A DNA stretch of 38,653 nt, from the IMG/VR virus record IMGVR_UViG_3300046028_005281, positions 1-38,653 of that record. The stretch is one strand, 5' to 3'. Both the position numbers and the translations under genes were made by a program. The DNA comes from a virus. How positions within the stretch are numbered: position 1 is the first letter of the stretch; each line of letters starts with the position of its first letter. Shown here in pieces: positions 4,345-23,092 of the stretch. The notes below the pieces were generated by a model. It was not told the origin of the DNA. It saw only the letters and a list, made by a program, of their open reading frames with translations, and made no database searches.

Positions 4345-4763
4345 TTGCGACCAACTACCAAATCTTCAGCCCACTGCCTGCGCTCTGTTTCTTTAGTAAG
4401 CTGTCTTTCGAGCTCTTCAATGCGACGCTCAGCAGCGCTTTTCAGCATTACGAGTTGATAACCCCTTTTGTTTGATAACCACTGCAATGGAGCTTCGTTT
4501 CCGCACAAGGTCATAAGCTCATCGAGCTTGTCAACCGGGAAGTGAGCATCACCCTTCATAATCCTAGACCAGTGACCCGCATCAATTCCTAGAGTCAAAT
4601 AGATCTCTTTATCCTCAAGGCCAGATAGCTGTACACACAAAACGATTGACGCAAGAAAGGTTTTTTTACGAGCGACAAGCTCATAAGGGGCTTCCATAAC
4701 ATTTGCCTTTCGCACCAAGGACAGCTCAGGGTGCTCAACCGTAACTATTTTTTTTGATGACAT
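4341..4763 (-). CDS. Phage regulator in the cII position
   Basis: The 140-residue protein directly follows cro. It contains a helix-turn-helix-like core, S-G-L-E-D-K-E-I-Y-L-T-L-G-I-D-A-G-H-W, followed by I-M-K-G-D-A-H-F-P and C-G-N-E-A-P-L-Q-W-L, a pattern I associate with phage regulators of beta- and gammaproteobacteria. The C-terminal 30 residues form a charged helix that may be a coiled coil. The place equals cII in lambda, so a role in the lysis-lysogeny choice is plausible but inferred. Start at 4763 with ACAGG upstream; an in-frame upstream start at 4802 would run into cro. Confidence 0.6.
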   Translation of the reverse strand: MSSKKIVTVEHPELSLVRKANVMEAPYELVARKKTFLASIVLCVQLSGLEDKEIYLTLGIDAGHWSRIMKGDAHFPVDKLDELMTLCGNEAPLQWLSNKRGYQLVMLKSAAERRIEELERQLTKETERRQWAEDLVVGRK

Positions 4764-4794
4764 TTGCCTGTCTCTCGAGCTTAAAAAAATGGGA

Positions 4795-5043
4795 CTATGC
4801 AACTATGTTTTTTGATCTAACCAATTCAGGCCAAATTTGGCGCCAGTCATCTGGCCGTAGGTCACGACGAGTGACTTTGCCCTTAGTGGCCTTTTCAATA
4901 TCTACGCAACGAAAAGGAGGAACCGGTTTTTTTTTGCTTGACCAACAAGACAAATCAGGCGCGTGAGCACCAATTTCTTTTGCCAGTAATGACAAAGATC
5001 CGCGGCCTTGGTTCGATAGGTATGTTTTGAGTTCCATACGCAT
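4795..5043 (-). CDS. cro: Cro/YdaS-type repressor
   Basis: The 82-residue product (80 if M3 is used) has a helix-turn-helix at residues 13-35: S-L-S-L-L-A-K-E-I-G, then A-P-D-L-S-C-W-S-S. The end, T-R-R-D-L-R-P-D-D-W-R-Q-I-W-P-E-L, is typical of YdaS/Cro proteins of phages. It is divergent from cI across a region holding two operators, so it should compete with CI and shut down early promoters. There is no Shine-Dalgarno. A promoter at 5044-5072 would start RNA at or next to the second ATG (5037), suggesting a leaderless message. Confidence 0.88.
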   Translation of the reverse strand: MRMELKTYLSNQGRGSLSLLAKEIGAHAPDLSCWSSKKKPVPPFRCVDIEKATKGKVTRRDLRPDDWRQIWPELVRSKNIVA

Positions 5044-5072
5044 AATTTAGCGTAACGCTAATTTGATTGCAA
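5044..5072 (-). promoter_or_regulatory. Leftward early promoter (PR-like) for cro operon
   Basis: On the minus strand TTGCAA (5072-5067) and TAAATT (5049-5044) are separated by 17 bp. Operator 1 overlaps the spacer and -10, and operator 2 overlaps the -35, so repressor bound there would block it. The expected start point is about 5037, the second ATG of cro. Confidence 0.6.
5047..5061. promoter_or_regulatory. Operator 1 (CI/Cro)
   Basis: A 15-bp palindrome TTAGCGTAACGCTAA (only the central base unpaired) lies in the cI-cro intergenic space. Three related sites exist in the window (5070-5084, 6515-6529, 6540-6554), all in the two places where a lambda-type phage has its operators. Confidence 0.85.
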
Positions 5073-5084
5073 GCGTTATGCGAA
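5070..5084. promoter_or_regulatory. Operator 2 (CI/Cro), weaker match
   Basis: CAAGCGTTATGCGAA keeps the AGCG/CGCT-like core of operator 1 with substitutions in both half sites. Its centre is 23 bp from that of operator 1, about two helical turns. Confidence 0.6.
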
Positions 5085-5102
5085 TTCTTTTTATTGTTAT
5101 TT

Positions 5103-5111
5103 TGCTATTCA
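5103..5111 (+). promoter_or_regulatory. Candidate extended -10 element for cI
   Basis: TGC followed by TATTCA reads as an extended -10 with no good -35. The expected RNA start is near 5118, two bases before the cI ATG at 5120. As no Shine-Dalgarno precedes cI, a near-leaderless cI message like lambda PRM is possible. Weak by sequence alone. Confidence 0.35.
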
Positions 5112-5119
5112 ATCAAATC

Positions 5120-5845
5120 ATGAAAGAAATTACAGCAATTAGGCGCGAAAACCTAGCCAAACTTAGGGCTAACTACAAAACACTCGACGAGTTTGCGGAA
5201 GCCTGCGGGATCTCTTCGTCTCAGCTAAGCCAATGGATTAATGGATCGCTTGATTCAAAAACAGGCAGGCCAAGAGGTATGCGGTCTGATAGTTGCAGAA
5301 AAATTGAAGAAATGACCGGCATTACAAAAAACTGGTTAGACACGGATCACTCAACTGGACAAGCAAAACTAGCAAGTCAGTGGGAGCAAGGACTTCATTT
5401 TGTATCTAACATTCAACCCGTTACATTAACGGCCAATCAAATACCTTTAGTTTCATGGGTAACAGCTGGACACTTAGTGGATATTATTGATAACAATCTG
5501 CCCGGAGAGGCTGATGATTGGATAACGCCAGAGTTTACAAAACCCAGTCGCCATGCCTTTGCTTTGCGAGTTGAGGGCGATAGTATGTCTGGGGGCGGTA
5601 CCGGAATCAATTTCCCCGAAGGTTGTTTAATTATTATTGACCCGGAGAGAGCTCCGAAGTCGGGTGATTATGTTGTGGCCAAAGACGTGGTTACTCAAAA
5701 AGCTACATTTAAAAAACTAACAACTGATGGTGCAAGTTGGTTTTTAAAGCCAATCAATCCAGCTTATCCAACAAAAGAAATTGACGACCCTGCATTGCGA
5801 GTAATTGGTGTAGTTATCGAATGGCAGACCGGCGGAAAGCTTTGA
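5120..5845 (+). CDS. cI: CI-type repressor with S24 self-cleaving domain
   Basis: This 241-residue protein should hold lysogeny by binding the four operators. An N-terminal helix-turn-helix spans residues 5-45 (L-D-E-F-A-E-A-C-G-I-S-S-S-Q-L-S-Q-W). The C-terminal LexA/CI peptidase domain shows the cleavage site A116-G117, nucleophile S155 in V-E-G-D-S-M and general base K198 in T-F-K-K-L, so RecA-stimulated autocleavage on DNA damage is expected. I start at 5120 because the fold begins there; codons upstream (TTG 5063, ATG 5078) would run through operator 2 and encode a hydrophobic stretch. The HIRAN gene follows after 36 bp. Confidence 0.92.
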   Translation: MKEITAIRRENLAKLRANYKTLDEFAEACGISSSQLSQWINGSLDSKTGRPRGMRSDSCRKIEEMTGITKNWLDTDHSTGQAKLASQWEQGLHFVSNIQPVTLTANQIPLVSWVTAGHLVDIIDNNLPGEADDWITPEFTKPSRHAFALRVEGDSMSGGGTGINFPEGCLIIIDPERAPKSGDYVVAKDVVTQKATFKKLTTDGASWFLKPINPAYPTKEIDDPALRVIGVVIEWQTGGKL

Positions 5846-5881
5846 TTCAAATACTTACAACCCGCTAAGATCGAGATAAAA

Positions 5882-6412
5882 ATGAGAAAAATGATTCTGC
5901 CTCTAATTATTTTTTATTTTTTAGCTGAAGTATTTTCACAAATTTTTAAGCAAAATTTTTGGGCGTGTTTTGCAGCTGTGTTAGTCATTGGTTATTTTGC
6001 TGTCAACATACTTGGCGGGGCTATTGAAGGGCTTAAAGGCGGTGCGGCCAGCTCGGGCGAGTCTGTTTTTCAGTGGCCATCATTGGGGCGCTTTGAGTTT
6101 GAAGTGGTTGGAGAATCAAATTACCAAAGCGCCATTAAATCAATTGCCGACAGCAGCGAGCAGTGCATAGCGTCGATCATTCCCGAAGATAGCAATAAAT
6201 TTGACCAGATGGCGGTCAGAATTGATATTCAAAATAAGACAGTGGGCTATATGTCAAAAGATGATGCTCGCAGCTTTCGTAAATTGCTAAGTAAAAATAA
6301 AATTGGCGGCAAAGTAACAAGTTGTAATGCAACGATTACAGGCGGCTTTGTTTTAAGAGATGGTAGCAAAGCACACTATGGAGTGTGCCTAGACATCAAG
6401 CCATTTGCCTAG
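5882..6412 (+). CDS. Membrane-anchored HIRAN-like protein at rex position
   Basis: The 176-residue protein has two hydrophobic segments (about residues 4-22 and 26-46), then a soluble domain. This domain reads F-E-V-V-G-E-S-N-Y-Q near 72, P-E-D-S-N-K-F-D-Q-M-A-V near 101, and V-G-Y-M-S-K-D-D-A-R near 121. These are the signatures of a HIRAN domain (V-x-G, E-x-x-N-x-x-D-x-x-A-V, V-G-Y). HIRAN domains bind 3' DNA ends or stalled-fork DNA in helicases; as a lone membrane protein the role is unknown. It lies 36 bp after cI with AGATAAAA upstream and before a terminator, so it should be expressed in the lysogen, as rexAB is in lambda. Exclusion of other phages is my inference. Confidence 0.7.
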   Translation: MRKMILPLIIFYFLAEVFSQIFKQNFWACFAAVLVIGYFAVNILGGAIEGLKGGAASSGESVFQWPSLGRFEFEVVGESNYQSAIKSIADSSEQCIASIIPEDSNKFDQMAVRIDIQNKTVGYMSKDDARSFRKLLSKNKIGGKVTSCNATITGGFVLRDGSKAHYGVCLDIKPFA

Positions 6413-6431
6413 TTCATAATCTAAATAAACC

Positions 6432-6456
6432 AAGCCCGCCTTTGCGGGTTTTTTTT
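6432..6456 (+). terminator. Terminator of the cI transcript
   Basis: A CCCGC/GCGGG stem with a CTTT loop, extended by weak flanking pairs, is followed by eight T. It isolates the lysogenic cI-HIRAN unit from the early operon promoter at 6529. Confidence 0.92.
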
Positions 6457-6514
6457 CGTCTGCAATTTTATAAATCCTAAGTAATTTCATATAAGGGTTT
6501 ATATATTTTGTAAA

Positions 6515-6529
6515 TTAGCGTAATGCTAT
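6515..6529. promoter_or_regulatory. Operator 3 (CI/Cro)
   Basis: TTAGCGTAATGCTAT differs from operator 1 at two positions. It ends at the first base of the -35 of the rightward early promoter. Confidence 0.8.
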
Positions 6530-6557
6530 TTACAAGAATTTAGCATTTCGCTAATAT
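6529..6557 (+). promoter_or_regulatory. Rightward early promoter (PL-like)
   Basis: TTTACA (6529-6534) and TAATAT (6552-6557) are separated by exactly 17 bp, a strong sigma-70 promoter. Operator 4 covers the spacer and half of the -10, and operator 3 abuts the -35, so CI would block it. RNA should start near 6564, upstream of the AAGGAGAT site for the first gene. Confidence 0.88.
6540..6554. promoter_or_regulatory. Operator 4 (CI/Cro)
   Basis: TTAGCATTTCGCTAA is a 15-bp near-palindrome related to operators 1 to 3, overlapping the -10 of the early promoter. Its centre is 25 bp from operator 3. Confidence 0.8.
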
Positions 6558-6592
6558 CTTTTTATCGGCAACTCGCCGCCAAGGAGATAAAA

Positions 6593-6817
6593 ATGAAACA
6601 AGGAAGCTACACCGGACAGAACTGGAGCCGGTCTCAGTCCACTTTAAGCACTGGCGCCCTGCCAATGCGTAAGTATCGGCGCGGCAGTTGGTACGAGGCT
6701 CAAGGCCTGTACGCGCAAGGCTCTGAGCGAATTCCACCCGTCGCGTGGGTCTTGGCAGCCCTGTTCATTTCAATCGCCGTTGGCGCGCTGCTAGTGGGCG
6801 CAAAGGCGGGTCTGTGA
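6593..6817 (+). CDS. Small single-pass membrane protein
   Basis: This is the first gene of the rightward early operon. The 74-residue product has a polar N-terminal half and one membrane helix near the C-terminus (V-A-W-V-L-A-A-L-F-I-S-I-A-V-G-A-L-L-V-G). A perfect AAGGAGAT ribosome-binding site precedes ATG, predicting high early expression. In lambda this position holds host-interfering genes; the function here is unknown. Confidence 0.75.
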   Translation: MKQGSYTGQNWSRSQSTLSTGALPMRKYRRGSWYEAQGLYAQGSERIPPVAWVLAALFISIAVGALLVGAKAGL

Positions 6818-7017
6818 AAGACGATCAACAACCAGCATTTCCGACTTGGAAAAGATCGGAAGATGTTTCGGAAGGTATGTCGCTGCGCGATTATTTTGCA
6901 GCGGCTGCGTTGCAAGGATTGCTTGCTGATGGGCATAACAATGGATCACCAAATTGTTTTGCAGACAGTGCGTATGTGTACGCCGACGCAATGTTGAAAT
7001 TTGCGAGGTCAAAATGA
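6814..7017 (+). CDS. Conserved phage early protein, GMSLRDYFA motif
   Basis: The 67-residue protein contains E-G-M-S-L-R-D-Y-F-A-A-A-A-L-Q-G-L, then A-Y-V-Y-A-D-A-M-L-K. This layout is seen in many small proteins of proteobacterial phages whose function is not known. I start at GTG 6814, overlapping the previous stop (GTGA) behind AAAGGCGGG; the upstream reading frame would overlap the preceding gene by more than 70 nt. Confidence 0.75.
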   Translation: MKDDQQPAFPTWKRSEDVSEGMSLRDYFAAAALQGLLADGHNNGSPNCFADSAYVYADAMLKFARSK

Positions 7018-7379
7018 GCCTCTGCCGCGTATCCATTGAAGAAGCACTAAACGACATTCCGGCCGGAAAGTATCAGGCCGCGATTGTCAGCAAAACCAAC
7101 GAGCTGCTGGCAGGAATGTTTGACCCAATGTCAAACGACAACTTCGCTTGTTTTTTTAGCGCTGACCTCAACGATAAAGACATCCAGATGCTGCTTTATA
7201 TGCGCGACGCGCTAAGAGTCGGCCACTTCGACCAGGCTGCAAATATTTTTAAGACCGCACTGGTCAGCTTTTACACCCGCCTCGCGCGCATCGAGGCACA
7301 AGATCAAATTGATAACGCAGATTGCCGCCAGTGCTTTGACGTTGGCTGCTTTAACTGTTTTGAACCGGAGAGGGAATAA
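7014..7379 (+). CDS. Hypothetical early protein with CxxC pair
   Basis: The 121-residue, mostly helical protein ends in C-R-Q-C-F-D-V-G-C-F-N-C, two CxxC pairs five residues apart that may bind zinc. It starts at ATG 7014, overlapping the previous stop (ATGA), and abuts bet directly. It may be a partner of the recombination module, but only position suggests this. Confidence 0.65.
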   Translation: MSLCRVSIEEALNDIPAGKYQAAIVSKTNELLAGMFDPMSNDNFACFFSADLNDKDIQMLLYMRDALRVGHFDQAANIFKTALVSFYTRLARIEAQDQIDNADCRQCFDVGCFNCFEPERE

Positions 7380-8147
7380 ATGAGTAACGCACTGCAAACG
7401 CTGACGCAAACCTTAGCCGCCAAGCTCAATATGGGCAGCGGTGAGGGCTTGATTGAAACCCTTAAAGCCACGGCCTTCAAAGCAAAAGAAGGCGTCTCAG
7501 ACGCTCAGATGACCGCGCTGATGATTGTGTCAAATCAATACGGCCTTAACCCTTGGACGAAGGAAATTTACGCATACCCAGACAAGGCAAACGGAATTGT
7601 GCCGGTGGTCGGACTCGATGGCTGGTCGAGGATCATTAACTCAAATGCGCAATTCGACGGCATGGATTTTGAGCAAAACGACGAATCATGCACCTGCACG
7701 ATTTACCGCAAAGACCGCACGCGACCAGTGCGCGTAACTGAATACCACTCGGAGTGCTACCGACCGGGCTTTAAAAAAGACGGTTATGAAATTAAAGGAC
7801 CGTGGCAGTCGCACCCCAAAAGAATGCTGCGCCACAAGGCAATGATCCAGTGCGCGCGCTTGGCATTTGGATTTGTTGGTATTTATGACCAGGACGAGGC
7901 CGAGCGGATTGTTGAGTCAACAAGCATCGATGCAAGCACCGGCGAAGTCACCCCCAAGGCCACGCAAGCTCGCGCCGAAAAATCTATCTGCTCAGACGAA
8001 AAATTTGCAGAGAACCGGACAGCATGGCGCGAGCTTATTAAGTCAGGCAAGAAAACCACGCAGCAGCTGGTCGCAATGCTTTCAACCAAAACACTTTTAA
8101 CCGAGGATCAGTTAGTTGAGATTGACTCTTGGAACCACGAGGAATAA
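7380..8147 (+). CDS. bet: Phage recombinase Bet (Red-beta/RecT superfamily)
   Basis: Bet anneals single-stranded DNA and works with a 5'-3' exonuclease and SSB. The 255-residue protein carries family hallmarks: L-M-I-V-S-N-Q-Y-G-L-N-P-W-T-K-E-I-Y-A-Y near residue 48, P-V-V-G-L-D-G-W then, and P-K-R-M-L-R-H-K-A-M-I-Q-C-A-R-L-A-F-G near 140. Length matches lambda Bet. It is followed after 5 bp by the YqaJ exonuclease and then ssb, the standard two-component recombination set. Its start abuts the previous stop, with GAGAGGG upstream. Confidence 0.95.
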   Translation: MSNALQTLTQTLAAKLNMGSGEGLIETLKATAFKAKEGVSDAQMTALMIVSNQYGLNPWTKEIYAYPDKANGIVPVVGLDGWSRIINSNAQFDGMDFEQNDESCTCTIYRKDRTRPVRVTEYHSECYRPGFKKDGYEIKGPWQSHPKRMLRHKAMIQCARLAFGFVGIYDQDEAERIVESTSIDASTGEVTPKATQARAEKSICSDEKFAENRTAWRELIKSGKKTTQQLVAMLSTKTLLTEDQLVEIDSWNHEE

Positions 8148-8152
8148 TCGAA

Positions 8153-9745
8153 ATGGAAAAAATCTTACGCCACCTCGACCAAGGCTCGCAGTCCTGGCAC
8201 GATTTCCGCGCTAATCACTTTGGCGCGTCTGAGGCGGCCGCAATGCTTGGTCTGTCAAAGTATCAGACACGCACTGAGCTGCTGACTGCAAAGAAAACAG
8301 GCATTACACCCGAAGTCAGTGGATTTACGCAAAGTTTGTTTGATAAAGGTCATGCGGCCGAAGCCACAGCTCGCGCGATCCTTGAGTCAAGGCTAAAAGA
8401 AGACCTATACCCGGCTGTTTATTCAAAAGGCAAGCTATCCGTAAGCTGCGACGGCATCGATCTTGCCGAGACTTTCGCTTTTGAGCATAAGTTATTTAAT
8501 TTTGCGTTATTTGATTCGATTGCGGCCGGAATGCTGCCAGACGAGTACCAGCCTCAGTGTCAACAAGCTTTGTACATCACGGGCGCTAGCCGCCTGTATT
8601 TTGTTTGCTCTGATGGTACGGACGAAAATTTTGCAATGATGGTAGTCAAGCCCGACGCAGACTGGATCGCTCGGATCATCCAAGGCTGGGCTCAGTTTGA
8701 GCGCGACCTAATCGACTTTGTGCCAGTAGTCCACGCAGAGAAGCCCAAGGCCGAGCCAGTTAAAGCCCTGCCAGCGCTTGCGATTTCGATTAAGGGCGAA
8801 GTATCAGTCTCGAACTTGCCGCGCTTTAAAGAGGCCGCGGATGCCTTTGTCGCGACGATTAAGACTGATCTCACAACAGATCAAGATTTTGCCGACGCTG
8901 AAAGCAATGTGAAATTTTTGGACGAGGCCGAGAAATCGCTTGAGCTGGCCAAGAAAAACGCATTGGCTGACACTGCCGACATTGACGAGCTGATGAAGAC
9001 TATCGACCATATCAAGGATTCGATGCGCGTCAAGCGTCTCGCCCTAGAGAAGTTGGTCAAGTCAAAGAAAGAAGAAATCAAGTCTGGCATTATGCTTGCC
9101 GCGCAACAGAAACTCGCCGCGCACCTCAAAGAATTAAGCGACGAAATTAAGCCTGTCGTGCTGTCGGTCATTTGCCACTTTGCAGAATCTGTCAAGGGCA
9201 AGCGCTCGATTTCAAGTCTGCATGACGCTGTAGACACAGAGCTATCGCGCTGCAAGATCGAGGCCGACTCAATCGCCGCGACTGTTCGTAAAAATCTAGC
9301 GCTATTTGACAAACAAGCGCCAGGACAAAAAGCCTTGTTTGCGGATCTGGCCACGCTTGCGCTGCAATCCTTTGAGACCTTCTCAGCAATCGTCGAGAAC
9401 CGTCTCGCCGCCGAGCTGGCGCGAGTCGCACAGATCGAGATCGAAGCCAAGATTCGCGCCGAAGCACAAGCCAAAGCCCAAGTTGAGGCATTTTTTCATG
9501 CAAAGCTACAAGCCGAGATTGCAGCTCAGGCCGCGTCAGTTGTGCCGCCCATTGTGATGACAAACAAGACTGTTTCGATGCCTATTGCGCCTCCAGTTAC
9601 ACCGAAGTACGCAGACAAGCCGACCCCTACGCTGCGCGAGATTGCCTCCCTAGTCGCGTTTGACTATGCAGTCGACGCAAAAACGGCAACGGCTTGGATC
9701 GTAAGCGCAGTTAATCATTATCAAAACCAAAGCGAGGCAGCATAG
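8153..9745 (+). CDS. YqaJ/lambda-type exonuclease with long helical extension
   Basis: The 530-residue protein combines an N-terminal exonuclease domain (1-170) with a helical C-terminal half. The nuclease part shows Q-G-S-Q-S-W-H-D-F-R at 10-19, G-A-S-E-A, E70, D100 in S-C-D-G, E111-x-K113 and Q-C-Q-Q-A-L-Y-I-T-G, the PD-(D/E)xK signature of lambda Exo and YqaJ. It would resect 5' strands for Bet. Residues about 200-460 are charged helix resembling the DUF1351 region that other phages use beside YqaJ. Lambda Exo is only 226 residues. Start 8153 has GAGGA upstream; an in-frame TTG at 8129 lies in bet. Confidence 0.9.
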   Translation: MEKILRHLDQGSQSWHDFRANHFGASEAAAMLGLSKYQTRTELLTAKKTGITPEVSGFTQSLFDKGHAAEATARAILESRLKEDLYPAVYSKGKLSVSCDGIDLAETFAFEHKLFNFALFDSIAAGMLPDEYQPQCQQALYITGASRLYFVCSDGTDENFAMMVVKPDADWIARIIQGWAQFERDLIDFVPVVHAEKPKAEPVKALPALAISIKGEVSVSNLPRFKEAADAFVATIKTDLTTDQDFADAESNVKFLDEAEKSLELAKKNALADTADIDELMKTIDHIKDSMRVKRLALEKLVKSKKEEIKSGIMLAAQQKLAAHLKELSDEIKPVVLSVICHFAESVKGKRSISSLHDAVDTELSRCKIEADSIAATVRKNLALFDKQAPGQKALFADLATLALQSFETFSAIVENRLAAELARVAQIEIEAKIRAEAQAKAQVEAFFHAKLQAEIAAQAASVVPPIVMTNKTVSMPIAPPVTPKYADKPTPTLREIASLVAFDYAVDAKTATAWIVSAVNHYQNQSEAA

Positions 9746-10195
9746 ATGGCATCGGTCAATAAATTCATCGGGCTTGGAAATTTGGGGCGCGACCCTGAGG
9801 TCAGGCACTCGGCAGACGGTGTAGCCGTTTGCAATATCTCAATCGCTTGCACAAATTCTTGGAAAGACAAGACCACTGGCGAGCGCCGCGAAGAAACCGA
9901 ATGGGTGCGCGTGGTGTTCTACAACCGCCTAGCCGAGATCGCTGGTGAGTACCTGAAGAAAGGTAAACCAGTCTATGTCGAGGGTCGATTAAAGACTCGC
10001 AAATGGCAAAACAAGGAAGGTGTCGATCAATACACCACCGAGGTTATTGCCGACTCAATGCAGCTGCTTGGTGGCCGCGAGGAAGGCTCGCAAGCGCCAG
10101 CTCCGCAACAGCGTCAGGCACCGGCAGCGCAACCACAAGCCCAACGTCAGCCAGCTGCGAATTTGGCTGATATGGGTGATGACATTCCATTTTGA
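9746..10195 (+). CDS. ssb: Single-stranded DNA-binding protein
   Basis: The 149-residue protein has an OB fold at 1-110 ([38 protein letters not shown]), a Pro/Gln-rich linker and the acidic tip D-D-I-P-F that binds SSB partner proteins. All are typical of bacterial SSB, slightly shortened. It directly abuts the exonuclease gene and coats DNA during replication and Bet-dependent annealing; the tip should recruit host and phage repair proteins. Confidence 0.96.
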
Positions 10196-10459
10196 TATGG
10201 CGAAAGCGAATGCTGTTGCTTAGGGTAGCGCCCTGCAGACATTCTAGATAGACGCTGAGAACAGCTTGCACAGTGCAGCGAGTAGCCAGTAGTACCAGCG
10301 AGCAATCGCAGCCCGAGTGCAAGTCTCGGGGCTTACATACAAGCGAATCAGGGCGTTTGAATGTGAGCCGATCAGGTCTTAGCCGCCTGTTGTTGTTTTT
10401 AATCCTGAACTATCTAAACGCTGCTTTATGCGAGCGGCTCACAATAATAGGAGATCGAA
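10196..10459 (+). other. Structured non-coding stretch after ssb
   Basis: 264 bp without a credible gene in an operon otherwise packed to overlaps. It holds a hairpin at 10310-10333 (AGCCCGAG with CTCGGGGCT, one bulge) and a perfect 9-bp inverted repeat TGTGAGCCG (10362-10370)/CGGCTCACA (10435-10443) whose right arm ends 6 bp before the AGGAGA ribosome-binding site of the next gene. It could be a small RNA or a regulatory leader. There is no T-run for a terminator. Confidence 0.5.
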
Positions 10460-11044
10460 GTGAACGAGCAAAAATTACCAGCAAGTCATCGGACAATTTT
10501 ATCAATTTGCAAAACGGGTAAAACTCTACGCCAACTTACCGAACACCTACAGTTTTCGCCGAGCACGCTTTACAGCCAAGTATCAAAATTGCAGCGCCTT
10601 GGTCTTATGTCGAAAGCGTCCGGTCAATTCGGCAGCGTATTTTTTACCCTTCCAGAAGATCAGCGCCGCGAGCCAGTACCGTCAAAGGCAATCGCGCGGA
10701 AAAATGGGATGGTACTTGATGCCCATATCATTGAGCTTTGCAGAGGTGGCGCTCGTATGCCTGAGCTTGTCGAGCGCTTAAAGTTTACAAGCCCGTACAT
10801 CGGCCGCCGACTCGCGGGGCTTAGTGAAAACGGGCAGGTTAAAAAAATCAAGCTGGCCGCGCATCACGAATGGGCTTATCTGACTTTTGGCACCGAGCTC
10901 GACCCAAGATATTTAAATAAAGACGCTGCGCTTTTTGTAAATCCGGATCTGATCGAGCTCAAAAATTCCGAGCACGAACGATCACCAGGCACAAACGAGG
11001 ATTTTGTACGGCAGTCGCACAACATCTGGAGGATCGCAGCATGA
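10460..11044 (+). CDS. Tandem winged-helix protein
   Basis: The 194-residue protein contains two copies of a winged-helix fold. The first (about 8-68) reads I-L-S-I-C-K-T-G-K-T-L-R-Q-L-T-E-H-L, then S-T-L-Y-S-Q-V-S-K-L-Q-R-L-G-L. The second (about 90-150) reads I-I-E-L-C-R-G-G-A-R-M-P-E-L-V-E-R-L, then Y-I-G-R-R-L-A-G-L-S. This looks like an internal duplication. It starts with GTG behind AGGAGA and overlaps the HNH gene by 4 nt. It probably binds DNA; target and role are unknown. Confidence 0.7.
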   Translation: MNEQKLPASHRTILSICKTGKTLRQLTEHLQFSPSTLYSQVSKLQRLGLMSKASGQFGSVFFTLPEDQRREPVPSKAIARKNGMVLDAHIIELCRGGARMPELVERLKFTSPYIGRRLAGLSENGQVKKIKLAAHHEWAYLTFGTELDPRYLNKDAALFVNPDLIELKNSEHERSPGTNEDFVRQSHNIWRIAA

Positions 11045-11691
11045 AGCGATTTATCTGGACAGACATTAGCTTGCGCCAGCTGAGGCAGCATTACCCACAC
11101 ACTACAGGCGCTCACGTTGCGAAATTGATCGGCACTAGCCTGTCGAGTGTGTATGCGAAAGCAAAGGTTCTGGGGCTGTGCAAGTCTGCTGAGTTTTTTG
11201 CAAGCGCCGAGTCTGGACGCACGACTGGACAGATCGGCCAGCAGACGCGCTTTGCGTCAGGCCAAGAGTCTTGGAATAAAGGTAAGCATTACGAGGCTGG
11301 CGGCCGCAGCGCAGAGACGCGCTTTGTCGCCGGCGCCATGCCGCACAACACCAAGCCGATCGGCAGCTACAGAATCAACGGCGAAGGCTATCTTGATCTA
11401 AAGGTTAACAACGACAAAGGCGCGAATCACGTTCGCTGGCACCCAGTGCATCGCTTGGTCTGGGAAGAGGTCAACGGCAAAGTACCTCAAGGTTCGATGA
11501 TCGTATTTCGTCCAGGCGCGAGAACTAACAAGCTTGACGAGATAACGATCGACAAAGTTGAGTGCATCACCCGGGCCGAGCACGCCAGGCGTTATCAGCC
11601 ATACGCTCGGGGCAAAGAATTTGGCGATCTAGTCATCATCAAAAGCCAGATCACAAGACACGTTAACCGCATTCAGAGAGAGGCAGCATGA
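11041..11691 (+). CDS. HTH-HNH endonuclease-like protein
   Basis: The 216-residue protein has an N-terminal helix-turn-helix (about 5-50: T-G-A-H-V-A-K-L-I-G-T-S-L-S-S-V-Y-A-K-A). A C-terminal HNH-type module shows the first histidine in V-H-R-L-V-W-E-E-V-N-G and the asparagine in T-N-K-L-D-E-I. The usual central histidine (H-x-D-G) is replaced by V-F-R-P-G, as in a phage subfamily of HNH proteins. Activity is therefore uncertain. It may be a free-standing homing-type nuclease. It overlaps both neighbours by 4 nt, so it is well integrated in the operon. Confidence 0.8.
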   Translation: MKRFIWTDISLRQLRQHYPHTTGAHVAKLIGTSLSSVYAKAKVLGLCKSAEFFASAESGRTTGQIGQQTRFASGQESWNKGKHYEAGGRSAETRFVAGAMPHNTKPIGSYRINGEGYLDLKVNNDKGANHVRWHPVHRLVWEEVNGKVPQGSMIVFRPGARTNKLDEITIDKVECITRAEHARRYQPYARGKEFGDLVIIKSQITRHVNRIQREAA

Positions 11692-19048: not shown

Positions 19049-22000
19049 TTATCCTACCAAAAGATTACGGGTTGTGCCGGCAGCGTCTTTAATCGTGATG
19101 TAGCCAGATTGAGCCAATATTCCGACTGTGTGTGTGCCAAATCTTAATACGCCTGTGCCTTTTGGTGTCAGGGCTAGGTCAATGTTGGTGTCTGAGCCAC
19201 CCGCTGAGATTGTCGGGGATGCGCCTGTTACGCCACCAGTCGCATTAATATAGTTGACTGCTGATGCAGTGTTGGTAACGGCGAATTGTGAACCAATAGT
19301 TAACGCACTAGCACCTGCCGTGATTGTAAGTCCGGGAATCCTGAACGCTGTGATTGAACTATTGCCTAACGTGATTTCGTTGCTGACGGTTGTAGTAGAT
19401 ACCGCTGCACCGTTACCAAGGATTAAATTATTACCGCCTGAGACTAACGTGTTTCCTGCCTGAAACCCTAACGCAGTATTACTGCTTCCTGCTGTGTTTG
19501 CAGTAAGTGTTTGATAGCCAACTGCTGTGTTGTTAGCACCCGTTACAAACGTAGCAACCGAAATACTAAACCCTGAGCCTGTGCCGCCAAGGAGTGCCGC
19601 TGCAACGGTTAAAACGGTAGCCGCTGTTGATGACGCAATAATACCCCCAGTCACTAATGTAACCGTAGTGACTACACCGCCTGCAACAACTACCGTGACG
19701 GTTGGATACGTTATAAATGTTGCGCCACTAACGGGAGTCATTGCAACGGTTGTGTACGTTCCATTCGTGTACCCACTGCCTGCGGTGATTGCGCCAAAGG
19801 TTGCCACGGCAGTCGTTGCGTTGATAAGTGCCTGATAACCAACCGCTGTTTGAGATGATGCAACCGTGTTGCAAGTCAGTGCGCTTGTGCCTACGGCAGT
19901 ATTAAAAATTCCAGTATTGGTAAAATATAAAGCATTAAAACCAACGCCTGTATTTTGATTCCCAGTCGTGTTTGTAAATAAAGCACCTGAGCCAATTGCT
20001 GTATTATTACTTTGCGATCCACCACCTTTGCCTACCGTTGCCCCGTTAATTGTGGCATCGGTAGTCGAAATTACTTTACCTGTGCCTTTTGCTGTCAAAG
20101 TCAAACTAATGTTGGTGTCTGAGCCTAAAGCAGAAATTACTGGTGCGCCCGTAGTAACCGCGCCAGTTAAGTTTAAATAATTGACTGCGGAGGCTGTGGC
20201 AGATACCAATACTTGAGTTGTGCTTGCGGTTTGAAGATATACGCCTTTATCGCCTTTGCCTGAAATCAACATTCCTACGTTTGTTTCGCCTGCCGCACCA
20301 AACTGAGGAAAACTTCCAGACCCTGCGGCTGATACTTTAACGTAATTGACTGCGGATGTTGTGCTGGCAATTTGAAATTGATTAAGACCGCCTGCGCTTC
20401 TAAACGAATGAGAGCCTGTGCCTTTTGCATCATAATTTAAAGTGATGTTTGCATCGCTACCTTGTGCCGAGATTGTCGGGCTATTACCTGTAGCTGCGCC
20501 TGTTGCTTGCAGATAGTTAACCGCAGAGGCTGTGTGGGCTACTACAAGTTGCAAATTAGCGCCGGAGTTTGTGTAAAGAAGTAAACCGCTACCGCCTTTG
20601 CTTGCTAAAGACAACCCAATGTTTGTATCAGAACCCTGTGCAATGATTGATGGTTGAGCAAGTGTTACTGCACCAAATACGCTCACATAATTCACCGCAC
20701 TCGCCGTAGGCGTGACCCGCAAAGACTCTGCGCCAACTAACCCGCCAAGCGATGTTGTGCCTGCAAAGACGTTAGCTGCCGTGCCGTTAGCGTAGAAGTT
20801 AAAACGGTTTGTGCCGCTTGCGATGTTGCCGTAGAAGCCGTAGTTGTTGGTTGCAACCGTTAAATTAGAATTTGCAAAAAATCCGTATTGGTTTGTTATA
20901 GCAGAGCTTGCCCCTAGCGTAGAAAACGCAGCGCCAAAATGCTGCATGTTTGTAATTGTATAAGCCGCTGCTGTTGTTGATGGTGAAGATAAAAATGAAG
21001 AAAATTCTGTAGTTGATGTGCTTGGGGCAGTGCCAATATTAGACACAGCTCTAGTCACATTTGATGCGCTAACTAAAGTTCCGCCAATTGTTATTTGAGT
21101 TGCACTACTACCCGCACCAATACCAGTCCCAGTCGTGATGCGACCATCATTAGTAATCCGCATACGCTCAGTCGGACTAGACGCACCATCAGCCGTGGTG
21201 CTAAACGTCAAACGACCGGGCATATCGTTTGTGCCGGGTGTGCCGTCTACGGATGAAGCAATAGATGCCGCAGCAATTGGGTTTGTGCCATCAGAAGCCG
21301 CAAAATAAATAGTGCCAATGGTATCCCCACTAGATACAACCCCTTGCGCTCCAATTGCGCCTCTGCTTTTGTTAATTAGCACAGAACAACCAAACGTATC
21401 AGCAGAGTAGCGCATAAGTGCTGTCGAAGAACTTTTATTATCTGTACCAAGCACTTGAAAATTTGGAGCAATTCCCGGTATATAAGCAGTTACTGCTGTA
21501 TGACCAACGGCTACTTCACCATTGCCATTAACCACAAACGGCGTAGCGTCAGGATTGGCACTATCCTCAACTAAAATAGCGTTTCCTGCACCAACTTGAG
21601 TAATGCGTAACGCAGCGTTTGCAGAGTTGTCTGAAATAACAGCATTAGCAGACGTTGTAAGCGTAGTAAACGATCCTGCCGCTGCCGTAGTTGACCCGAC
21701 TGTTGTGCCATTGATTGCGCCGCCTGTAATGGCCGCTGAGTTAGCGTCTTGCGTGGCAAGCGTGCCAGCGCCAATATTCTCTCTTGCTTGAAGAGACTGA
21801 GGTGCGGTTAAAGTCTGAGCCTGATCCCATCGAACGCTTGAAGCAAGTGTCGTCGAGGCATTGGTTGCACTTGTGGCGGCATTTGTGGCGCTCGTTGCTG
21901 CAGCTGCGGCGCTTGTGCTTGCACTTGTGGCGCTGCTTGCAGCATTGCTTTCGCTATTAGACGCGTTGGTTGCACTGATGCCGGCAGCGGTTGCTTGTGT

Positions 22001-23092
22001 CGTTGCAATCGTTGCTTGCGTTGACGCAGTAGTTGCGCTTGTTGCAGCTTCGCCTGCCTTAGTTGTTGCTATAGCAGCTTGCGTAGTCGCTGTAGAGGCC
22101 TGAGTGGTTGCAGTCGAAGCAGAACCTGATGCGTTTGTTGCGTTCGATGCGGCATTTGTTGCTTGAGTCGAAGCCGTAGTTGCAGACGTTTGAGCACTAG
22201 TAGCTGAATTACCCGCATTAGTTGCCTGCGTTGCAGCGGAAGTAGCTGATCCCTGAGAATTGGACTCAGAAGTCGCAGCTGCATTTTTCGAGGCTAGTGC
22301 TGCCGTTGCCGAGGTCGCTGCGTTGGCTGCGCTTGTAGCGGTTTCGCTTGCTTTAGTCGTGGCGGTCGTGGCTGATGTTGCCGCGTTCGTTGCACTTGTT
22401 TGTGCGCTTGTTGCGCTAGTCGCGGAATTTGTTGCGCTCGTCGCTGCTGCACTTTTTGATGCTAGAGCGTCAGTCGCGCTCGCTGCTGCATTGGTCGCAC
22501 TGGTGCCTGCCGCCGCATTACTTGCCGCCGCTGCCGTTGCGCTATTCCCCGCTGCTGTTGCAGAATTGGTTGCGTTGGTCGCGCTAGTTGCTACGGCCGA
22601 GACGGAGCCTGCAGCCGAGGTCGCAGACGATTGCGCAGCTGTCGCTGATCCGGCCGCCGCTGCTGAGGACGCTGCCGCATTAGTCGCAGACGCTGCCGAT
22701 TGCGTGGCGCTCGCAGACGAGGCTGCAGCTGCCGTTTGAGCCGCAAGTTTTGCAACCGTAGCCTGGTCAAGTGTCGGCGCTGTGCCAAAACCTAAAATCG
22801 CGTGCAAGTTGCAAGCAGAGGTCGGCACTGTGCAAGATCCGAGATCGATCGTGCCACCGTTTGGCTCAGACAGCATGACACGGTACTGAGTGCCGGCCGC
22901 ACCTAACGAGTTTGGCCAAAGGTTTGCAACAACCACGCCTGAGCTATTGGCTGTCGCCAAAATTTCTCTTGGCACGATCAGACCATTTTCAGTATCTGCG
23001 CTGCTAAGCAAAAACCTAAATTTGCCACCGGCAATAAAAGTACCGTCTGGACGGTTAGCCTGGCACGTTACTGATACTGTAGTAATCGGCAT
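19049..23092 (-). CDS. Long tail fibre with YadA-like repeats
   Basis: This 1347-residue host-recognition fibre has a globular N-terminus of about 110 residues, then about 300 residues of Ala/Ser/Thr heptad-like repeats (S-A-T-N-A-A-T-S-A-T style) forming a long trimeric shaft. A beta-rich middle follows, then five divergent copies of a unit with A-S-A-V-N-Y and G-S-D-x-N-I-x-L. Near the C-terminus come YadA-head-type repeats (N-T-A-V-G-Y-Q), interrupted by an inserted domain. I see no S74 chaperone motif at the end. A terminator lies directly upstream at 23105-23125. Confidence 0.88.
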   Translation of the reverse strand: MPITTVSVTCQANRPDGTFIAGGKFRFLLSSADTENGLIVPREILATANSSGVVVANLWPNSLGAAGTQYRVMLSEPNGGTIDLGSCTVPTSACNLHAILGFGTAPTLDQATVAKLAAQTAAAASSASATQSAASATNAAASSAAAAGSATAAQSSATSAAGSVSAVATSATNATNSATAAGNSATAAAASNAAAGTSATNAAASATDALASKSAAATSATNSATSATSAQTSATNAATSATTATTKASETATSAANAATSATAALASKNAAATSESNSQGSATSAATQATNAGNSATSAQTSATTASTQATNAASNATNASGSASTATTQASTATTQAAIATTKAGEAATSATTASTQATIATTQATAAGISATNASNSESNAASSATSASTSAAAAATSATNAATSATNASTTLASSVRWDQAQTLTAPQSLQARENIGAGTLATQDANSAAITGGAINGTTVGSTTAAAGSFTTLTTSANAVISDNSANAALRITQVGAGNAILVEDSANPDATPFVVNGNGEVAVGHTAVTAYIPGIAPNFQVLGTDNKSSSTALMRYSADTFGCSVLINKSRGAIGAQGVVSSGDTIGTIYFAASDGTNPIAAASIASSVDGTPGTNDMPGRLTFSTTADGASSPTERMRITNDGRITTGTGIGAGSSATQITIGGTLVSASNVTRAVSNIGTAPSTSTTEFSSFLSSPSTTAAAYTITNMQHFGAAFSTLGASSAITNQYGFFANSNLTVATNNYGFYGNIASGTNRFNFYANGTAANVFAGTTSLGGLVGAESLRVTPTASAVNYVSVFGAVTLAQPSIIAQGSDTNIGLSLASKGGSGLLLYTNSGANLQLVVAHTASAVNYLQATGAATGNSPTISAQGSDANITLNYDAKGTGSHSFRSAGGLNQFQIASTTSAVNYVKVSAAGSGSFPQFGAAGETNVGMLISGKGDKGVYLQTASTTQVLVSATASAVNYLNLTGAVTTGAPVISALGSDTNISLTLTAKGTGKVISTTDATINGATVGKGGGSQSNNTAIGSGALFTNTTGNQNTGVGFNALYFTNTGIFNTAVGTSALTCNTVASSQTAVGYQALINATTAVATFGAITAGSGYTNGTYTTVAMTPVSGATFITYPTVTVVVAGGVVTTVTLVTGGIIASSTAATVLTVAAALLGGTGSGFSISVATFVTGANNTAVGYQTLTANTAGSSNTALGFQAGNTLVSGGNNLILGNGAAVSTTTVSNEITLGNSSITAFRIPGLTITAGASALTIGSQFAVTNTASAVNYINATGGVTGASPTISAGGSDTNIDLALTPKGTGVLRFGTHTVGILAQSGYITIKDAAGTTRNLLVG

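Follow-up and report, generated by a model that had tools for sequence, protein, structure and literature searches.

We identify here a gene (TM-HIRAN; 5882..6412, + strand) that codes for a HIRAN domain joined to a predicted membrane hairpin, and that lies directly behind a cI-type repressor gene, between operator-like sites, in the interval held by rexAB in phage lambda. It was found in the IMG/VR virus record IMGVR_UViG_3300046028_005281, of which the whole stretch of 38,653 nucleotides was analyzed (hereafter the window). Relatives of this gene recur behind different repressors in other phages, and we propose, with moderate confidence, that its product is an accessory protein made in the lysogen. 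The HIRAN domain, tethered to the membrane on the cytoplasmic side, would capture DNA 3' ends or single-stranded DNA intermediates of incoming phage and exclude or abort that phage.

Organization of the repressor region

The gene directly upstream of TM-HIRAN codes for an S24-peptidase repressor of the cI type (5120..5845, + strand; PF00717, E 1e-21; phrog_4, E 2.8e-41). Its likely start is the ATG at 5120, inside a TTG-initiated reading frame that opens at 5063, as the repressor of a related contig, L012, aligns from that methionine. Only 36 nt separate the repressor stop at 5845 from the TM-HIRAN start at 5882. On the opposite strand lies a divergent Cro-like gene of the YdaS/P22 Cro type (4795..5043, - strand; PF15943, E 1.9e-16; phrog_35), and a palindrome search recovered between it and the repressor an OR-like operator palindrome, TTAGCGTAACGCTAA (5047..5061). 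The repressor-HIRAN unit is ended by an intrinsic terminator (6432..6459, + strand) with an 8-bp stem followed by a T run. Beyond it are two imperfect matches to the same palindrome (6515-6529 and 6540-6554), which together constitute an OL-like region (6515..6554), overlapped by a promoter-like TTTACA-17-TAATAT element that is pL-like by consensus match (6529..6557, + strand). The palindrome has seven strand matches in the window versus 0.85 expected, a number reached in none of 100 shuffles; apart from those at 5047, 6515 and 6540, a single other, weaker match is seen in 38.6 kb. Given the operators at 5047 and at 6515/6540, the HIRAN gene is situated between OR-like and OL-like sites, as is rexAB in lambda, and the local order (OR, cI, rex slot, terminator, OL/pL) is the same in both. 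The initial annotation had placed the gene in a rex-like position between cI and a strong terminator, and the short spacing from the S24 repressor, the terminator and the flanking palindromes bear this out. Membership of the left operon is ruled out by the intervening terminator and operator sites.

Comparison with a 79% identical homolog on another viral contig (L002) gave a dN/dS of 0.14 over the whole gene (0.10 for the HIRAN part); the low overall value indicates purifying selection, and hence that 5882..6412 is a real gene. A search of Rfam yielded nothing at 4500-7500, a tRNA search of the window found none, and a nucleotide search with 4700-6700 against phage records returned no match. 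Elsewhere the window codes for a 1347-aa tail-fibre-like protein with many Ala/Ser/Thr-rich repeats (19049-23092, - strand).

Architecture of the protein and assignment of the HIRAN domain

The 176-aa product, read from an ATG, has two hydrophobic segments by hydropathy (residues 3-22 and 25-49). An AlphaFold model built with 29 relatives as input (mean pLDDT 88.9) shows helices at residues 2-22 (5885..5947) and 26-54 (5957..6043), the latter comprising the second membrane helix and its continuation, and then a β-rich domain past residue 60. These predictions agree with the two membrane helices first noted from the sequence. The N-terminal hairpin is itself conserved, with 70% amino acid identity between the window protein and L002 and 45% between it and L012. 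The predicted layout is thus an N-terminal hydrophobic hairpin followed by a C-terminal HIRAN domain (residues 65-176; 6074..6409), which is presumably cytoplasmic.

Taken alone, the window protein scores 16.4 bits against the Pfam HIRAN model (PF08797), under the cut-off of 24.7, so the domain call could not be settled from this protein by itself. Many relatives exceed that cut-off, among them L004 (26.1 bits), the Nostoc phage L005 (34.5), L046 (26.5), L070 (27.8) and L082 (32.1), along with L095, L071, L076, L084, L069, L015 and L018; those that pass span 26-35 bits, and others fall just short. A profile of 29 relatives searched against the PDB recovered the HIRAN domain of human HLTF (E 9.6e-7) followed by lp_0118 (3k2y; E 2e-4), with nothing significant below. 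Foldseek searches with the AlphaFold model placed HLTF HIRAN at ranks 1-3 and lp_0118 (3k2y) at rank 4, and the first 17 rows are all chains of these two proteins (probability 0.94-1.00). Similarly, VIA-align gave Z-scores of 9.0 for 3k2y, 7.2-7.4 for five HLTF entries and 5.2 for yeast Rad5, the next row being a helix-only match at 4.2; rows 10 and below, which are helices or weak matches, were left out. The fold matches and the 29-sequence profile rule out a chance motif as the source of the sub-threshold Pfam score. By profile and by fold the window protein is a member of the HIRAN family, in line with the HIRAN-type domain of the initial annotation and with the fold check that it had suggested. 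A Pfam scan of the protein at E up to 1 returned only HIRAN and DUF2969, with no nuclease domain; NCBIfam held no relevant family for it; and no PADLOC defence model matched convincingly, the 19-bit match to PDC-M03B reflecting the shared HIRAN part only.

In HLTF, D94, H110 and K113 contact DNA, and the N and D of the pocket motif are features of HIRAN domains in general. Being general in this way, a conserved N/D pair denotes a preserved pocket and is not proof of DNA binding. The equivalents of HLTF N91 and D94 (N105 and D108 in the window protein) are invariant in all 31 phage relatives, the K113 position is K or R in 31/31, Y73 is Y in 26/31 and H110 is H or Y in 29. The Y72 and Y93 positions vary among the phage relatives; as the window protein has N and F there, both stacking tyrosines are replaced in its pocket. 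These positions were taken from an alignment to HLTF, numbered as in PMC4666394, and in HLTF the N90A/N91A double mutation fully impairs HIRAN function (PMC4666394). Most of the pocket is hence preserved across the phage family, whose binding of DNA 3' ends is putative.

Genomic contexts of the phage relatives

Relatives were gathered by protein scans of viral contigs, one scan of genome contigs and whole-genome searches; two query-specific viral scans recovered the query's own contig only. Contexts were counted over the 31 separate phage or prophage loci whose upstream sequence could be read. In 18 of these a same-strand repressor lies upstream of the HIRAN gene (the window, L003, L004, L009, L012, L014, L015, L018, L068, L069, L070, L072, L077, L078, L081, L082, L084 and L095), the upstream genes having been called repressor or transcriptional regulator from PHROG matches. 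The L072 gene matches a regulator only weakly (phrog_35, transcriptional repressor, E 8e-6; a family of unknown function is matched as well), and in L004, L015 and L018 one extra gene intervenes between repressor and HIRAN gene. The repressors of L004, L014 and L018 are short and lack an S24-type match in the PHROG lists. Clustering of 17 of the repressors yields 11 groups at 50% identity; at 80% there are 16. A rough binomial estimate for 17 of the first 28 loci lying behind a repressor is 2e-17 or 7e-11 for chance shares of 4% or 10%, which are assumed values applied to loci that are not a random sample. Among phage relatives, then, homologs are not mostly found away from repressors, which answers the survey of homologs behind cI that the initial annotation had called for.

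The HIRAN relative adjoins a tape-measure gene in 7/31 loci (L017, L019, L020, L023, L079 and L083 by test, L021 by its resemblance to L020), making this neighborhood a second cargo position for the HIRAN domain. Another six (L071, L073, L074, L076, L080 and L102) are placed elsewhere or, as L071 and L073, have no clear neighborhood class.

Searches with the window repressor as query recovered four other phages (L087-L090) whose repressors are 51-61% identical in the best segment. Contents assigned by eye to the slot behind them are, in place of HIRAN, a membrane protein on the opposite strand (L087), a lipoprotein (L088), a two-helix protein (L089) and a one-helix protein (L090). Such small membrane and lipoprotein genes behind related repressors would be anticipated if the slot holds exchangeable cargo. 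The L012 repressor is 81% identical to that of the window, and the anchor half of the L012 HIRAN protein is closer to the window's N-terminal part (45%) than to that of L003 (20%), while its HIRAN half is 88% identical to the HIRAN part of L003, a pattern consistent with recombination between the two modules, anchor and HIRAN.

The anchor itself varies across relatives, which have two helices, one helix, none, or, in L102 (3986-4567, + strand; adjoining an integrase gene), a C-terminal rather than an N-terminal membrane helix. No membrane segment accompanies the HIRAN domain in the repressor-linked L078, L081, L082 and L084 proteins, so a HIRAN gene can occupy the repressor slot without encoding an anchor. 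In the one-helix proteins of L004, L009, L010, L015, L018 and L073, basic residues follow the helix, from which the positive-inside rule predicts a cytoplasmic HIRAN domain; for the window protein the rule is uninformative. The helix-less L005, L019, L074, L076 and L080 proteins share a short N-terminus of the form MGLLxWLFG, with the look of an amphipathic helix that binds membranes.

Additional genes were observed around some of these loci. In L003 a HipA-like kinase gene and a HIRAN-containing partner (9501-11143, - strand; PADLOC PDC-M03B) lie close to the TM-HIRAN gene, giving this contig two HIRAN proteins. The gene between repressor and TM-HIRAN in L004 (7143-7787, + strand) codes for a protein whose C-terminus resembles a BRCT domain; it matches a PHROG family of unknown function strongly and DNA ligase weakly, and nothing in Pfam. 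In three phages (L003 8094-8957, L008 1934-2800, L012 5561-6415) the gene after TM-HIRAN codes for a lipoprotein, and the two may move together as a cassette.

Comparison with known systems

A close positional parallel is lambda RexA/RexB, which share with TM-HIRAN the interval of the repressor operon before the terminator and OL, a membrane component and a position that would be expressed in the lysogen, but are two polypeptides rather than one. No match of the window protein to the RexA or RexB families was found in Pfam or PHROG at E up to 1, and to our knowledge the HIRAN domain is absent from Rex proteins. Moron genes are often found between repressor and N, and BstA of the Salmonella prophage BTP1, which likewise lies directly behind cI as an accessory gene, is transcribed from the cI promoter (PMC7067206); it is, however, a different protein, and the window protein has no BstA-family match in Pfam or PHROG.

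AbiP of Lactococcus and PdpSau of a Staphylococcus prophage abort infection; both are anchored in the membrane and bind nucleic acids or are predicted to do so (PMC10127798). Both combine a short N-terminal membrane anchor with a small nucleic-acid-binding β-barrel, as would the arrangement predicted here, an anchor and a HIRAN barrel with putative nucleic-acid binding, and PdpSau is also prophage accessory cargo. They differ from it in having an OB-like fold in place of HIRAN and a single helix, and PdpSau in lying near the lysis genes and not behind the repressor. By analogy, TM-HIRAN might be a protein of the AbiP/PdpSau kind. SNIPE, which cuts phage DNA during injection, similarly unites a membrane anchor with DNA binding (PMC13190303), but has a nuclease domain, of which Pfam detects none in the window protein. 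The HIRAN domains of HLTF and Rad5 resemble that of the window in fold and most pocket positions; unlike them, the window protein has a membrane hairpin, N and F in place of Y72 and Y93, and no helicase, RING or other enzymatic domain. HipN and HipL, the bacterial conflict genes behind PADLOC PDC-M03B, also contain HIRAN, but joined to HipS-like or kinase domains and with no membrane anchor.

Cellular relatives and alternative functions

Matches to the family occur in 59 of 199 genomes related to that of a Nitrosomonas, some of them weak. These Nitrosomonas-type two-helix HIRAN proteins are chromosomal, with no repressor linkage in the flanks seen, and 19 of the 36 loci L032-L067 have a glutathione peroxidase gene in the flank; in L032 and L046-L067 the HIRAN gene directly adjoins it in at least 19 loci. 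Among the weak matches in whole genomes, those of L035-L039 are short HIRAN proteins, several with an apparent signal peptide and thus a seemingly exported HIRAN domain. Given the chromosomal paralogs beside glutathione peroxidase, the two-helix HIRAN architecture is not exclusive to phage exclusion, and the paralogs suggest a non-phage role for it. The phage family may derive from a chromosomal gene, or the reverse.

These paralogs raise an alternative that we consider unlikely, namely that the phage gene is a host-fitness gene acquired from bacterial chromosomes, its product being a stress- or redox-linked membrane protein that serves lysogenic conversion. Their abundance and peroxidase linkage speak for such an origin; yet no peroxidase was seen, by eye, beside any phage copy inspected, and the basic residue at the K113 position, kept in 31/31 phage relatives, is missing from 11/31 of the cellular set. 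Still less probable, in our estimate, is a role in prophage maintenance or induction, in which HIRAN would act in the lysogen as a sensor of stalled forks or DNA damage and tune repressor stability or induction, to no effect on other phages. Eukaryotic HIRAN domains do act in damage and fork processing (PMC4666394), and the repressor ahead of the window gene on the same strand is of the S24 type, for which a response to RecA is expected. However, other family members are linked to many different repressors, including the short ones of L004, L014 and L018 without S24-type matches, and the seven tape-measure-linked relatives lie far from any repressor.

Two helices and a barrel also recall the S-2TM-β proteins of CBASS and Panoptes, Cap15 and OptE, in which a two-pass membrane element precedes a nucleotide-binding β-barrel (PMC12657218). 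On this model, a di- or oligonucleotide entering or leaving the HIRAN pocket would gate permeabilization of the membrane, and both the overall layout and the conservation of the hairpin would suit it, as would the fit of a single dinucleotide in the HLTF HIRAN cavity (PMC4666394). We judge it the least likely of the three: the barrel is HIRAN, the Pfam scan at E up to 1 found no S-2TM-β family, no nucleotide cyclase adjoins the gene, whose neighbors are the repressor and left-operon genes, and the many relatives with one helix, a C-terminal helix (L102) or none fit a tether better than a pore. The listed fold matches include no S-2TM-β structure, an absence that on its own does not weigh against the model.

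A proposed role in exclusion of incoming phage

Because relatives recur in the slot behind many different repressors, we favor the reading that TM-HIRAN is probably a guard of the resident prophage against other phages. As an accessory (moron) gene in the lambda rex slot of the repressor operon, it would probably be co-expressed with the repressor in the lysogen. The short hydrophobic N-terminus would serve as an inner-membrane anchor and leave the HIRAN domain on the cytoplasmic side, where its pocket could bind a free 3' end or a short stretch of single-stranded DNA. It might thus catch phage DNA as it enters, or early replication and recombination intermediates, at the membrane, and either block establishment of the superinfecting phage or trigger a membrane-linked abortive infection. 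Were its expression coupled to that of the repressor, a naive cell infected by this phage would lack the protein, which would spare the phage's own DNA on entry. The seven tape-measure-linked relatives, the anchorless relatives and the chromosomal paralogs counsel caution about this exclusion model.

HIRAN proteins are already known in phages (PMC6469090), and the HIRAN parts of HipL and HipN have been proposed as sensors of phage DNA ends (PMC8262856). In the titles, abstracts and passages of the openly licensed literature that we consulted, no description was found of a HIRAN gene behind a phage repressor or of a membrane-anchored HIRAN protein. We more tentatively suggest a wider possibility, that of a hitherto undescribed family of prophage exclusion proteins which sense infection by DNA ends at the membrane. 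TM-HIRAN would then stand to RexAB as a one-piece equivalent, its tethered HIRAN domain catching phage DNA by the 3' ends as it enters. Members of the family would move as an exchangeable cassette, found behind many different repressors and also, frequently with no anchor, beside the tape-measure gene. The family offers a concrete, testable case for the question of what occupies the slot between repressor and OL in temperate phages. If the proposal is correct, free DNA 3' ends would be a non-sequence-specific mark of invading phage DNA, read by prophages at its point of entry through the membrane, and the reader would be a domain best known from human fork-remodelling enzymes.
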